This document shows positions 53,537-59,333 of a DNA stretch of 64,000 nucleotides, one piece after another; positions within the stretch are counted from its first letter, which is position 1, and each line of letters opens with the position of its first letter. The notes under the pieces are model-generated. The model made no database searches, had not been told where the DNA came from, and was given only the letters and a program-made list of their open reading frames with translations. Source of the DNA: Bergeyella zoohelcum ATCC 43767 (GTDB taxonomy: Bacteria > Bacteroidota > Bacteroidia > Flavobacteriales > Weeksellaceae); assembly GCF_000301075.1 (NCBI RefSeq), contig NZ_JH932293.1:1648692-1712691 (forward strand). The letters are read 5' to 3'. A program made the translations under genes and the position numbers.

Positions 53537-54616
53537 TTATCCATTCTTCTCTTTTTCCATCATTTCAATAAACTCATCGAAAAGATAGTTGGCATCTTCA
53601 GGTCCAGGGCATGCTTCAGGATGGTACTGTACAGAGAAACAAGGATATTTTTTATGGCGAATTCCCTCATTGGTTTTATCGTTAAGAGCAATGTGTGTTT
53701 CCTCTAAATCTGTATATTTAAGGCTTTCGCTATCAATGGCGTAATTATGATTTTGAGAAGTAATGGTAACTTTATTGGTTTTTAGATCTACTACAGGATG
53801 ATTACCGCCTCTATGCCCGAATTTGAGCTTAAAAGTCTTAGCACCACAAGCTAATCCAAGCACTTGATGCCCCATACAGATCCCAAAAATTGGTACTTTT
53901 CCGATGAGTTTTCTCACGGTTTCGTGTGCATGAGGTACATCTTCAGGGTCACCAGGGCCATTAGAGAGCATCACGCCATCAGGGTTCATCAGGAGGATTT
54001 CTTCCGCTGTGGTATCATGAGCAACCACCGTAATGTCGCAATTTCTTTGTGAAAGTTCACGGATGATTCCCAGCTTAGCTCCGAAATCCATTAATACTAC
54101 CTTAAAGCCTCTTCCGGGGTTGGCATACGGTGTCTTGGTAGAAACGGAAGCAATCTGATCCGTAGGGAAAGAAGTTGCTTTTATTTCATTGATAACACTT
54201 TGTTCATCGATGTCCGCATCCACTATTTTTCCTTTCACCACCCCCTTGTCTCTGAGCACTCTGGTCAGTCTTCTGGTATCTATACTGTGGATGCCCGAAA
54301 GGTTTTTCTTTTTAAAGAGTTCGTCTAGGGACATTTGGGAACGAAAGTTTGATGGTAAATCACACAATTCTTTTACGATAAGTCCTTTAATTGCAGGTTC
54401 TATACTCTCGTAGTCATCTCTATTGATGCCGTAATTTCCGATGAGCGGATAAGTCATACACACGATTTGTCCACAATAGGATGGGTCTGAAACCAGTTCT
54501 TGATAACCTGTCATTCCGGTGTTAAAAACCACTTCCCCTGCTATATTTTCACTCGCTCCGAAGCCTTTACCATAGAAGACCTCCCCTGATTCTAATATTA
54601 ATTTTTTATTGTTCAT
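53537..54616 (-). CDS. carA: Carbamoyl-phosphate synthase small subunit
   Basis: 359 residues. N-terminal domain LILESGEVFYGKGFGASENIAGEVVFNTGMTGYQE; the C-terminal glutaminase has the nucleophile in FGICMGHQVLG and the catalytic His/Glu in SVQYHPEACPGPED. With CarB it makes carbamoyl phosphate for pyrimidine and arginine synthesis. The gene is on the same strand as pyrB but separated from it by two genes of a different kind (54677-58233). Its 60-nt upstream gap holds degenerate GC(A/T)TAAAGC-like repeats and no clear promoter. Confidence 0.96.
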   Translation of the reverse strand: MNNKKLILESGEVFYGKGFGASENIAGEVVFNTGMTGYQELVSDPSYCGQIVCMTYPLIGNYGINRDDYESIEPAIKGLIVKELCDLPSNFRSQMSLDELFKKKNLSGIHSIDTRRLTRVLRDKGVVKGKIVDADIDEQSVINEIKATSFPTDQIASVSTKTPYANPGRGFKVVLMDFGAKLGIIRELSQRNCDITVVAHDTTAEEILLMNPDGVMLSNGPGDPEDVPHAHETVRKLIGKVPIFGICMGHQVLGLACGAKTFKLKFGHRGGNHPVVDLKTNKVTITSQNHNYAIDSESLKYTDLEETHIALNDKTNEGIRHKKYPCFSVQYHPEACPGPEDANYLFDEFIEMMEKEKNG

Positions 54617-54676: not shown

Positions 54677-57232
54677 TTATTTTGCTCCTTTTACTGCATT
54701 TTCTCCTTTTGTCAAAAGCTGTAGATTATCAAGTATAGTTAAACCGCCTTTGTGCATAGGTACGATGTGGTCAATTTGAAAAACCAATCTGTTTTTGCTT
54801 TTATAACCGCTTTCGGCACTGAAATAGTAACCACTTTCATCAGTAAATTTTTCAAAAACTTTGTCTCGTAACCATTTTTCGTAAGCTGGATTTACTTTTC
54901 GTATTTCATACAATGGCATTCTCTCAAACTCGCGAATTTCGTATTCTTCCACTGGAAGTTGCTTTTCTTTTTGGTATAATTCTGGATAGAATAGTCTGTT
55001 TTTAGCGAGATTGATTTCATTAATGAATATTCGCTTATCATAATTGAAGAAAGTTTGCCATTCTGTTTCTGATTCTGCCCAAGTTTTATCAATAAAATCC
55101 TTTTCGGCTCTTGAACCTAAATCTTTTACATAAATTTCGTTAGCTACTTTATCAATGTTATATTTCTCTCTTTCCTTCAGTTCTATATATTGTGGTATTT
55201 CTCCCTGAATAATATAATATTGTAGTAAATCTTTAATGTCTTGCTTACTATATGCGGGATATTTCTCTATTCCAAAGAAAAATTCATCTTCAATCTGCTG
55301 TGAATATATATCTAGTTCTTGTTGGTGGAGGTATTCACAATTTTCTAAATTATTATCTTCTACAAAATATGGTAATGTCTCCACAAATTTCTTGTAAGAT
55401 TCTTCTATGTTATCGTAGATTAAGATTTCACAGTTTCGTTGTTTTTCATCTCCTTGTTCCAATTTCTCCAATAATTTGAACTGAAAAATACCTTTAGGGA
55501 TTCGTTGGATAAAATCTAGTTTTTCGAGCTCTTTTTTCGTTTCAGGATCAATAATTTGGTTAGTTAAAATAGCAAATTCTTCTATTTTAGCAATGGATAC
55601 CAAACGGATTAATTGTTTTTTTGTCTCTTTATCTGTATCGTTGAAATCAATATTATCTTCAATGAATAGTTTTTCAGGATTTACCCACGCAATTTTGTCT
55701 TGCCAATTATCAATAAAACTAACGATATACGCTTCCTTTGTTCCTCCAGCTTTTATGCCCCGTAATCCTCTGCCTATCATTTGCGTCATCAGAATGGTAG
55801 AGATGGTTGGGCGTGTTAGGAAAACTGTTTGCACATTGGGTATATCAGTGCCTTCCGTTAAGATATTTACATTGATGAGAACTTCTAATTTCCCGTTTCT
55901 GAAATCATCAATTTTAGCTTTATTTTCTTTGGTAAAATTCGTGGTAACGCCTGTAATTGCATCTTTTATATTAGCAATTACATAGTCAGATTTTATACCT
56001 TTCTCTTGAAATAATTTATTAAGAGCAATGGCATTGTTCACATTCAGAGCAAAAACGAGTGTCTGTTTGTATTTTTCCTTATTTGATACATAGCGTTCAA
56101 CAATGGTATAATTACGCTCTCTATTTTCAGCAATGGTTGTGGCAATATGCTCGCCAATACTATTTATGTCAAATGTATTGAATAATTGAATTTCTTTATC
56201 CGTTAAATTTGCCGTGAGATTTTGCCCCGTTTGTACCTCTTCAAAAATAGGTTCCGACAAAATTCCTAAACGAATAAGTGTTTTTAAATCAATCTTATAA
56301 ATGACATCATCGGGGAATACTTTTTTGAGTAATCCTCGTTCATTTTCTGCCGTTCTGGTAGGGGTAGCTGTTAGTCCCAATAATTTAAAATTCTGAACAT
56401 TATTCTTCAGATTATCGATGAGCTTCCTATAAGTTTTTGCTGTTGCATGATGAGCTTCATCAATTACTAAGAATATTTCATCGGTTTGCTTCTCAATCCA
56501 ATTTTTATAAAGAAACTCAAATCCTGTATTTAGACTGTTTTTACTGGCAATTATTAGGTCATCTGTTGGGCGTATATTGATAGGCTTATCGTGAATACCT
56601 GATAATATTCTATAATTAAAACTATTTCTTTTCGCAAAAATATCCTTATAGGCAAGTTTTTGCACGAATGTATTTTTTGCTTGTTCCAACAGTTCGTGCC
56701 TATGGGCAACCCAGAGTACTTTTTTATTTGTATCTAAAAAGTTTTTGGCAATCCAAAGAGCGGCAGTCAGTGTTTTTCCGCCTCCTGTTGGTAATACCAA
56801 AAGTCCTGAGAATGGATTTTTTTCAGATTTAATGATTTGTTTTTGAAGGTTATAAAAGGCCTCTTCTTGATGCTTATAAGGACGGATTCCACTTTCAGAT
56901 TTTGAAATGTTTATTTTCCCTGCAAAATTTATTTTTGCAGAACCTTGACTTTTATTAGTACTATCGTTTAACATGGATTTTCTAAATGTAATGGTTGAAT
57001 TTTTAGTAAAATCTATTATGCTTTCAAATTTTTCTTTTCCTTTCCAAAATGTAATATCCTTTTCCTTAAGTTTATCTTCAATCTCTTGAAGTATTTTCAA
57101 ATTTCTCCTTTTCAGCATTCCAAATTGTATCAAAATTGTTTCATATCTTCTATGAGTACAATAATACTTATTTCGTTCTATATTATCCGAAATATCTGAA
57201 ACAAATTTTTGTATATCTTTTTGTCTTTTCAT
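54677..57232 (-). CDS. SF2 DEAD/DEAH helicase fused to C-terminal HNH nuclease
   Basis: 851 residues. Residues 1-110 are a helical, lysine-rich region without known motifs. The helicase follows: Walker A PTGGGKT (148-154), DEAH (258-261), TAT (288-290), RecA2 with LVFALNVNNA and motif VI QMIGRGLRG (484-492). Residues about 520-780 are a long region I do not recognise. At the C-terminus there is an HNH nuclease, FQIDHIVPMHKGGLTILDNLQLL (819-841), with the Asp-His pair and the later Asn/Lys. It resembles type I/III restriction translocases, but with a nuclease at the end. The start codon overlaps the stop of the YhcG gene (ATGA), so the two are coupled. The pair sits between pyrB and carA; a defence role is inference. 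Confidence 0.85.
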   Translation of the reverse strand: MKRQKDIQKFVSDISDNIERNKYYCTHRRYETILIQFGMLKRRNLKILQEIEDKLKEKDITFWKGKEKFESIIDFTKNSTITFRKSMLNDSTNKSQGSAKINFAGKINISKSESGIRPYKHQEEAFYNLQKQIIKSEKNPFSGLLVLPTGGGKTLTAALWIAKNFLDTNKKVLWVAHRHELLEQAKNTFVQKLAYKDIFAKRNSFNYRILSGIHDKPINIRPTDDLIIASKNSLNTGFEFLYKNWIEKQTDEIFLVIDEAHHATAKTYRKLIDNLKNNVQNFKLLGLTATPTRTAENERGLLKKVFPDDVIYKIDLKTLIRLGILSEPIFEEVQTGQNLTANLTDKEIQLFNTFDINSIGEHIATTIAENRERNYTIVERYVSNKEKYKQTLVFALNVNNAIALNKLFQEKGIKSDYVIANIKDAITGVTTNFTKENKAKIDDFRNGKLEVLINVNILTEGTDIPNVQTVFLTRPTISTILMTQMIGRGLRGIKAGGTKEAYIVSFIDNWQDKIAWVNPEKLFIEDNIDFNDTDKETKKQLIRLVSIAKIEEFAILTNQIIDPETKKELEKLDFIQRIPKGIFQFKLLEKLEQGDEKQRNCEILIYDNIEESYKKFVETLPYFVEDNNLENCEYLHQQELDIYSQQIEDEFFFGIEKYPAYSKQDIKDLLQYYIIQGEIPQYIELKEREKYNIDKVANEIYVKDLGSRAEKDFIDKTWAESETEWQTFFNYDKRIFINEINLAKNRLFYPELYQKEKQLPVEEYEIREFERMPLYEIRKVNPAYEKWLRDKVFEKFTDESGYYFSAESGYKSKNRLVFQIDHIVPMHKGGLTILDNLQLLTKGENAVKGAK

Positions 57233-58233
57233 CTTTCCATTTGCTCCTCTAATACCCTTTTCTCTCTCTCAATTTCCGCAACCAACTCCTCTTCCGTAGG
57301 TAGATATGCCATATATTTATTGGCAAAAAGCTGCTTATTATCACTTAAAACAGAATACTTAGCAATGGTTTGATCAGTTTCTGTACAAAGTAAAATTCCA
57401 ATAGTAGGGTTATCATTTTCTTTTTTCTCCAAATCGTCAAACATTCTGACATACATATCCAATTGCCCAATATCTTGATGAGTCATTTTATTGGTTTTCA
57501 GTTCTAAAATTACAAAACATTTGAGAATATAATTATAAAATACAAGGTCTATAAAAAAATCCTGTGTCTCTGTCCGGATATGCTTTTGCCTTGCCACAAA
57601 TGCAAAACCTTTGCCCAATTCCAAAAGAAATTTTTGTAAATTGTCTATCAATCCTTGCTCCAACTCTTGTTCCGTATAAGCTGCATTTGCAGGAAGTCCC
57701 AAAAATTCCAATACCGTTGGGTTTTTGATGAACGCTGTTTTATCTTTCTGTAAATCAGATGTATTCTCTTTCATTTCCCGCTCTACCAAATCTGCTCGTT
57801 GGGACGATATAAGCCGATGATAATAGAGCGTATTGATATTTCTCTCTAAAGTTCGCACAGCCCAATTTTGCTCGGTAGCTTCCTTAATATAATAATCTCT
57901 CGCTTTACGGTCTTCCACCCTGAGCAATAAGCGTATATGGGACCAACTCAATTTGGCACACGCGTGTGCCAAATCTTCCCAATAAGGAAATGAAAGATAA
58001 AATGCACGATAATCTCTGAGCGTTCTCGGACTGAAGCCTTTTCCCAATTGGGCGGAAAGAGTTTTTATAACCTCTTTTCCATAATCAGCACGAGCGTTAC
58101 CTCCCTGTTCCTCTTCTACAATTCTCTTCCCTATCAGCCAAAAACCTTCTACCATAGCAAAAGCCGTAGCTGAATAAGCCTTTTGTCTGGCTTGTTCTAT
58201 GATTTTGCGTATATCATTGATACATTGTTGCAT
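57229..58233 (-). CDS. YhcG-family (DUF1016) PD-(D/E)XK nuclease
   Basis: 334 residues from ATG 58233 (MQQCINDIRKIIEQARQKAYSATAFAMVEGFWLIG); an ATG 12 codons upstream is possible. N-terminal DUF1016_N winged-helix-like part (GKGFSPRTLRDYRAFYLSFP). The C-terminal nuclease carries LLELGKGFAFVARQKHI, the Asp in FIDLVFYN and the ELK triad in VILELKTNK (D229, E244, K246), followed by GQLDMYVRMFDD. All key residues are present, so it is likely active. YhcG genes often sit in restriction or defence clusters. Here it overlaps the helicase gene by 4 bp and follows pyrB by 63 nt. Confidence 0.88.
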   Translation of the reverse strand: MQQCINDIRKIIEQARQKAYSATAFAMVEGFWLIGKRIVEEEQGGNARADYGKEVIKTLSAQLGKGFSPRTLRDYRAFYLSFPYWEDLAHACAKLSWSHIRLLLRVEDRKARDYYIKEATEQNWAVRTLERNINTLYYHRLISSQRADLVEREMKENTSDLQKDKTAFIKNPTVLEFLGLPANAAYTEQELEQGLIDNLQKFLLELGKGFAFVARQKHIRTETQDFFIDLVFYNYILKCFVILELKTNKMTHQDIGQLDMYVRMFDDLEKKENDNPTIGILLCTETDQTIAKYSVLSDNKQLFANKYMAYLPTEEELVAEIEREKRVLEEQMER

Positions 58234-58296
58234 GATATTTAATTTTGGTAGTCCATTATAGGCTCTCATTACGCTTGGACGAGATCTATCTTGTCC

Positions 58297-59193
58297 CTAC
58301 GGTTCTATAAATTTTATTCCTTTTTTCTCCAAAGCATCTTTTAGTATGGCCATTCGGGCATAAACGCCATTTTCCATCTGCTTAAAAATACGACTTCTCT
58401 TGCATTCCACAAGGTCTGTATGTATTTCTACTCCTCTGTTAATAGGTGCAGGGTGCATAATGATGGCATTGGGTTTCATTTTCTTTTCCCGCTCTTTGGT
58501 CAGTCCATATTTTTTGTGGTATTTATCTAGGGACATTTTCATTTTTTCCCCATGTCTTTCGTGCTGAATTCTTAGGAGCATCAGTACATCTACTTCGCTG
58601 ATGAGTGCGTCTAGTGAAAGGTAATTTCCATTGATAAATTCGGCCTCATCAAACCAATCTTCAGGACCAGAGAAATAGACTTTTGCTCCCATTTTTCTCA
58701 ATGCATCGGCATTAGAATTGGCCACTCTACTATGCTGAACATCTCCTACGATGCCTACTTTCAAATTTTTAAAAGTACCAAACTCTTGATAAATCGTCAT
58801 CAAATCCAAAAGGCATTGGCTGGGGTGATTTCCTGTACCATCTCCGCCATTAACTACGGCACTTTTTATTCCTGCTAATTCTTCATAATATTTATTTTTT
58901 TTATGCCGAATCACGAATAATTGTACCCCAATACTTTCCAAGGTTTTTACCGTATCATAGAGCGTTTCTCCTTTATTTACCGAAGAATGGGTAACATCAA
59001 ACGGCACTACTTCTAGTCCTAGTTTCCTTTCGGCGACATCAAAACTGGTTTTGGTTCGGGTACTATCTTCAAAGAAAAGATTCGATACGAAAACTTGTTC
59101 TTTTACTTTGGCACTGCGTCCTTCTGAAAAAGCTATTGCAGCTTCTAGGAGTGCCATAATTTCTTCTTTGGAATAATGATGAATCGCTAACAT
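58297..59193 (-). CDS. pyrB: Aspartate carbamoyltransferase catalytic subunit
   Basis: 298 residues. The carbamoyl-phosphate loop FFEDSTRTKTSF, the HPSQCLLDLMTIYQ active-site region, GDVQHSRVANSNADAL and HPAPINRGVEI are all typical. It condenses carbamoyl phosphate and aspartate, the committed step of UMP synthesis. No pyrI follows. The ATG at 59193 lies 4 nt after a TAAATTTG box and just after a terminator that ends a short leader ORF, suggesting regulation by attenuation. carA lies 3.7 kb downstream on the same strand, after an interposed helicase/nuclease pair. Confidence 0.96.
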   Translation of the reverse strand: MLAIHHYSKEEIMALLEAAIAFSEGRSAKVKEQVFVSNLFFEDSTRTKTSFDVAERKLGLEVVPFDVTHSSVNKGETLYDTVKTLESIGVQLFVIRHKKNKYYEELAGIKSAVVNGGDGTGNHPSQCLLDLMTIYQEFGTFKNLKVGIVGDVQHSRVANSNADALRKMGAKVYFSGPEDWFDEAEFINGNYLSLDALISEVDVLMLLRIQHERHGEKMKMSLDKYHKKYGLTKEREKKMKPNAIIMHPAPINRGVEIHTDLVECKRSRIFKQMENGVYARMAILKDALEKKGIKFIEP

Positions 59194-59197
59194 AGTT

Positions 59198-59205
59198 CAA
59201 ATTTA
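59198..59205 (-). promoter_or_regulatory. Possible internal -7 box (TAAATTTG) directly before pyrB
   Basis: Perfect TAnnTTTG, 4 nt before the pyrB ATG, but with no TTG about 19 nt upstream (that place is the terminator stem). It would give a leaderless pyrB mRNA independent of the attenuator. Confidence 0.35.
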
Positions 59206-59206
59206 C

Positions 59207-59236
59207 AAAAAAACGAAGTCAGTAAATGACTTCGTT
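59207..59236 (-). terminator. Attenuator-like intrinsic terminator in front of pyrB
   Basis: Minus strand AACGAAGTCA-TTTAC-TGACTTCGTT followed by a run that makes T7 (59207-59213). A 10-bp perfect stem. The stop codon TGA of the 33-codon leader ORF lies at the base of the descending arm (59219-59221), so a ribosome finishing that ORF would open the hairpin. Confidence 0.75.
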
Positions 59237-59320
59237 TCGGATAATATTAAAATAAAAATTTATTCCGGTAACACCAGATGAAAAAGCATCAGAAAAGAAA
59301 AAAATCTCTGTATTTTTCAT
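59219..59320 (-). CDS. Putative pyrB leader peptide, 33 codons
   Basis: ATG at 59320, 5 nt after a perfect TATTTTTG; stop TGA at 59219-59221. The product starts MKNTEIFFFSDAFSS and ends NIIRNEVIY. The RNA is U-rich twice: AUUUUUUUCUUUUCU early and AAUUUUUAUUUUAAUAUUAU just before the terminator, the second in the loop of a possible pause hairpin (CGGA...UCCG). The peptide resembles no protein I know, which suits a leader whose translation, not product, matters. The layout parallels the E. coli pyrBI leader. The alternative is a separate small transcript with its own promoter and terminator. Confidence 0.5.
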   Translation of the reverse strand: MKNTEIFFFSDAFSSGVTGINFYFNIIRNEVIY

Positions 59321-59325
59321 TGGTG

Positions 59326-59333
59326 CAAAAATA
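59326..59333 (-). promoter_or_regulatory. -7 box (TATTTTTG) of the pyrB leader
   Basis: Perfect TAnnTTTG on the minus strand, followed by CACCA and the leader ATG. No clean TTG is seen at -33. Confidence 0.6.

Follow-up and report, generated by a model that had tools for sequence, protein, structure and literature searches.

The aspartate carbamoyltransferase gene pyrB of the family Weeksellaceae is preceded by a conserved leader that we read, with a probability of roughly 80%, as a transcription attenuator, UTP-sensing and translation-coupled, that controls pyrB or, in most of the family, a pyrB–carA–carB operon. The conserved anatomy, the open frame, the position of its stop codon, the U tract and the hairpin are observed directly, as are the lack of an antiterminator and of PyrR. 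The transcription start, the pausing, the coupling of ribosome to polymerase, UTP as the signal and the response to it are inferred. If correct, this reading would provide an example of UTP-sensing attenuation beyond the enterobacteria that is family-wide and easily tested, and it suggests a mode of pyrB control in a family that lacks PyrR and includes Chryseobacterium, Elizabethkingia, Riemerella and others. No prior report of the leader was found in the literature searched, which did not extend to most subscription journals.

In the window (the whole 64-kb stretch of DNA that was analysed), the leader and its gene comprise the following elements.

59326–59333, minus strand: promoter box of the leader, of the form TAnnTTTG, TATTTTTG, read from the sequence
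59219–59320, minus strand: mini-ORF of 33 codons, MKNTEIFFFSDAFSSGVTGINFYFNIIRNEVIY, read from the sequence, its frame conserved family-wide
59264–59278, minus strand: putative pause hairpin, TCTGGTGTTACCGGA, its position conserved in the family
59243–59258, minus strand: U-rich tract between pause hairpin and terminator, with U enrichment family-wide
59207–59237, minus strand: intrinsic terminator by RNA folding, with an 11-bp stem, a 5-nt loop and T7
59198–59205, minus strand: possible second promoter, TAAATTTG, directly 5′ of pyrB, found in 1 of 107 leaders and not conserved
58297–59193, minus strand: pyrB, aspartate carbamoyltransferase, the putative regulated gene (358 bits with NF002032, whose cut-off is 263)

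As a preliminary description of the window had it, the promoter box is followed after 5 nt by the ATG (59320) of a 33-codon ORF on the minus strand, and the stop codon of that ORF, TGA at 59219–59221, indeed opens the descending (3′) arm of the terminator as its first triplet. The reported T7 is also present (59207–59213), followed by 13 nt and then the pyrB ATG at 59193, but the stem has 11 bp by RNA folding rather than the 10 given. Similarly, U tracts and a putative pause hairpin are both present, but the later tract (about 59243–59258), which had been placed within the hairpin, lies directly 3′ of TCTGGTGTTACCGGA. The arrangement is not due to chance. There are 10 TAnnTTTG-N5–7-ATG sites in the window, and a terminator follows only the one in the pyrB leader; moreover, the predicted fold of the leader beats 200 of 200 shuffles (z = −4.6).

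With PyrB as the query against 59 genomes, the same leader was found before pyrB at 28 of the 29 Weeksellaceae loci inspected, in the order TAnnTTTG box, ATG, mini-ORF, small hairpin, A/U tract, stop codon, terminator, pyrB. A covariance model (R1) built from these 28 leaders matches 42 of 60 family genomes and 252 of 296 Weeksellaceae genomes, the latter matches being spread over 25 of 33 genera; among the named relatives are Chryseobacterium, Kaistella, Elizabethkingia, Riemerella columbipharyngis, Cloacibacterium, Epilithonimonas, Soonwooa and Halpernia. A PyrB match is also missing from several of the family genomes that lack a leader match. In a sample of 247 genomes of the phylum, the model matches four, all Weeksellaceae. 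The preliminary description had named a lack of this arrangement in relatives as grounds for refutation; the comparison does not refute it, since the family keeps box, ORF, U tract, hairpin and terminator while codons and peptide vary, and its proposal of pyrBI-type attenuation gains support from this conservation, with the UTP response and the transcription starts still inferred. Two genomes of genus g17 (G016 and G080; loci L029 and L229) have a divergent pyrB behind a terminator and a U-rich stretch without the TAnnTTTG–ATG start; this region may be a degenerate or a different leader, and we count it against the UTP attenuator. Matches of the model in other genomes at L064, L067, L068 and L069 are terminators at gene ends and not leaders, and a third similarity match in the window's own genome (L033) lies elsewhere, within other coding sequence.

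The gene upstream of the leader varies, and the leader stays beside pyrB regardless. This association bears on a possibility already raised in the preliminary description, that the element is an independent small RNA or small-peptide gene and that pyrB is served by its own promoter, TAAATTTG. In the window genome such a box does stand directly 5′ of pyrB, but the window's own copy is the only one among the 107 leaders, so that a second promoter is not a conserved feature; nor is the peptide conserved, and the attachment to pyrB whatever the upstream gene would be left unaccounted for. We therefore give this possibility almost no credence.

Across 107 leaders, the mini-ORF frame contains 2 stop codons in 2095 codons, compared with 254 and 111 in the two alternative frames. 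Because the 107-leader set contains closely related Chryseobacterium species, stops were counted separately in 28 leaders, about one per genus, with 1 in the mini-ORF frame versus 62 and 34. The mini-ORF is open to within 12 nt of the terminator stem in 105 of 107 leaders, and in 77 the last base of its stop codon is 2 nt inside the stem; every one of the 107 has its stop at, within or past the stem, or at most 13 nt ahead of it. Among 19 close pairs, codon changes were synonymous in 8 cases and non-synonymous in 34, and 14, 13 and 18 changes fell at codon positions 1, 2 and 3. The peptide is thus free to change while the frame stays open, which argues that the frame, and not the peptide, is kept. 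Judged from the stop counts, an ORF directly before pyrB is kept open by selection, its translation itself being inferred. In E. coli, a ribosome at a stop codon represses a nearby terminator, and termination becomes maximal only at distances above 27 nt (PMC4824070); the stop distance in the family (13 nt or less) is within this repressing range, so a terminating ribosome would be close enough to block the terminator. In a few leaders (L006, L013 and L022), the mini-ORF continues through the terminator, an arrangement compatible with E. coli but at odds with the stop position usual in the family, and these through-running ORFs also count against the UTP attenuator.

Frame, stop position and terminator would be explained equally well by a translation-coupled attenuator that does not sense UTP but instead reports ribosome availability or general translation, with the A/U tract serving as a fixed pause site. 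The composition of the tract argues otherwise. Across the family, U makes up 71% of the 12 nt directly before the terminator stem versus 29% of the rest of the ORF, and the tract is enriched in U rather than A, with C nearly absent. Moreover, the leader is found only before the pyrimidine genes pyrB and carB. We accordingly consider an attenuator blind to UTP unlikely, although it retains some plausibility. The U tract of the window leader is less pure than those of its relatives and is followed by ATCCGAAACG, which we weigh against the UTP attenuator.

The codons of the tract are mostly Ile, Tyr and Phe, which raises the question of amino-acid attenuation, where ribosome stalling at Ile/Tyr/Phe or Asn codons would decide termination. 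The window leader also shows similarity to the Rfam family Phe_leader (RF01859), at 27.1 bits against a gathering cut-off of 55. That identity was rejected, as the score is below the cut-off and none of eight other family loci matches. The third codon positions are also constrained: within the tract, Phe, Tyr and Ile codons have U rather than C as their last base by 206 to 7, compared with 729 to 352 in pyrB (p = 1e-23), which indicates that U and not the amino acid is selected. With peptides that diverge freely, no alternative stem or antiterminator found, and downstream genes that serve pyrimidines, amino-acid attenuation appears highly improbable.

Preceding the tract is the small hairpin, whose 3′ end lies a median of 21 nt before the terminator stem (10–90% range, 17–25). 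Its stem sequences differ between genera while its position is conserved, and its mean stability in the family is −5.04 versus −1.69 kcal/mol in shuffles. Hairpin-stabilised pauses form a known class (PMC9291695), and we infer that the hairpin causes polymerase to pause before the U tract. In the terminator, 4 of the 9 consensus pairs are kept through changes on both sides. Complementarity to the 5′ arm of the terminator is 4.88 bp versus 5.35 bp in shuffles; since this is below expectation, there is no sign of a competing antiterminator.

The absence of an antiterminator also bears on control by a protein or ligand, either PyrR or an unknown riboswitch. Bacillota pyr operons are controlled by PyrR, and the PyrB of the window (58297–59193) has as its best solved matches 3r7d, 2at2 and 6pnz (about 330 bits), which we take to be Bacillota enzymes. 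Weeksellaceae PyrB is 63% identical to that of Bacillus badius and about 40% identical to those of other families of the order; a small PyrB tree is unresolved, with Bacillus badius not separated from the Weeksellaceae. By sequence, the Weeksellaceae enzyme looks Bacillota-like, and lateral transfer is possible. In Bacillus badius itself, CCAGAGAGGC stands before pyrB. This resemblance would favor a regulator of the PyrR type, but PyrR is missing from the family: none of 120 family genomes reaches the cut-off of NF003549, the curated PyrR model, and when a sister-family PyrR was used to search 60 family genomes, it gave just two matches, both weak and partial. Many other families of the order have pyrR immediately 5′ of pyrB; no such leader was seen before pyrR in those families. 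Antiterminator pairing is missing and little sequence between ATG and hairpin is conserved, and such a mechanism would leave the conserved open frame unexplained. We hold control of this kind to be very improbable.

Bacteroidota have their own promoter type, and their translation initiation does not rely on Shine–Dalgarno sequences. In the leaders, the spacing from TTTG to ATG is nearly fixed (6 nt in 97, 5 nt in 8 and 7 nt in 2 of 107). In Flavobacterium psychrophilum, the TAnnTTTG box lies at −12 to −5, and only 5.5% of mRNAs are leaderless (PMC9723704). Assuming the same box position, the predicted 5′ untranslated region would be 1–2 nt long, and the mini-ORF of the window would begin about 1 nt from the 5′ end of the transcript, a start that has not been mapped. 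In predicted folds, 71% of 28 leaders have a paired start codon versus 29% in shuffles, and the pairing often belongs to a compact 5′ hairpin such as CAAUG-N4-CAUUG (in family leaders; window 59270–59320). The longest helix that includes the start codon does not exceed that of shuffles in length. On the basis of these folds, pairing could slow initiation, which counts against the UTP attenuator, and the 5′ hairpin is possibly a timing element.

In the UTP-sensing attenuator that we favor, transcription would start 1–2 nt before the ATG, so that a ribosome could load almost at once on a nearly leaderless mini-ORF. RNA polymerase would pause after the small hairpin, at a point followed almost exclusively by U and A. 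If UTP is ample, it would depart promptly and outpace the ribosome, and the terminator would fold, yielding an RNA of about 110 nt that ends before pyrB. With scarce UTP, polymerase would be slowed and the chasing ribosome could cancel the terminator. The peptide itself would have no role. Against this scheme stands the lack of transcript, 5′-end or expression data for any member of the family, and coupling in Bacteroidota is assumed. A broader history, to which we lean only slightly, has the Weeksellaceae losing control by PyrR, gaining a Bacillota-like pyrB and inventing a new UTP timer. In this timer, a near-leaderless mini-ORF would race polymerase to the terminator, and the 5′ hairpin that often holds its start codon may set the delay of the ribosome. 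If true, the timer would be convergent with E. coli pyrBI, and it would be evidence for tight transcription–translation coupling on near-leaderless RNA in Bacteroidota. A single leader could in this way reveal whether polymerase and ribosome are coupled in the phylum.

The closest analogy is to the pyrL leader of E. coli pyrBI, where low UTP causes polymerase to pause and a coupled ribosome prevents the terminator from folding (PMC10135430; the mechanism is also described in PMC5021804). Both systems have a leader ORF, a U-rich stretch before an intrinsic terminator and pyrB directly downstream, and in both the ribosome can reach the terminator. The analogy is not complete, and there is no obvious sequence relation. 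The Weeksellaceae ORF lies almost at the 5′ end, whereas pyrL follows a purine-rich ribosome site; its stop is usually at the base of the terminator, whereas that of pyrL is beyond it; and its U tract abuts the terminator, whereas the U-rich stretch of E. coli lies about 20 nt before. The hairpin before the tract is conserved in position; for the pyrL pause, by contrast, reliance on RNA structure was considered unlikely in an in silico study (PMC9291695). E. coli pyrBI has a second control through UTP-dependent reiterative transcription at its start (PMC6245113); the predicted start of the Weeksellaceae leader has no U run. The Weeksellaceae leader probably works like that of pyrBI and probably evolved independently; its restriction to one family, in a search that did not include Pseudomonadota, speaks for an independent origin, and common descent has not been shown. 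The PyrR-controlled pyr attenuators of Bacillota also place a terminator before pyrB, but the leader here has neither PyrR nor antiterminator, and has a conserved ORF instead. Within the Bacteroidota, leader peptides before amino-acid operons of F. psychrophilum are thought to control transcription; these serve amino-acid pathways, and pyrB is not mentioned in the main text of that report (PMC9723704).

In most genomes examined, carA and then carB follow pyrB, and in genomes with this operon carB has no leader of its own. In the window genome, carB lies elsewhere, behind a pyrE–pyrF fusion. A similar leader, MFLANKIIFLDKIIKGEVIY, stands before this carB with one inserted gene in between; its terminator has the same stop-in-stem arrangement, but its box-to-ATG distance is longer. 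In another genome (G074), a leader lies directly before carB. The carA of the window genome (C1:1702237–1703301, about 53546–54610 of the window) is downstream of pyrB on the same strand with two genes between. These tightly spaced genes (54677–58269, minus strand) are a nuclease-like ORF, DUF1016/YhcG-like by eye (57229–58269, minus strand), and an 851-aa helicase with an HNH-like end (54677–57232, minus strand), and they look like defence or cargo insertions in the pyrimidine operon. The gene inserted between the carB leader and carB (L066:3419–4513, in C1 of the same genome) is phospholipase-D-like, with weak similarity to DrmC/DpdK.
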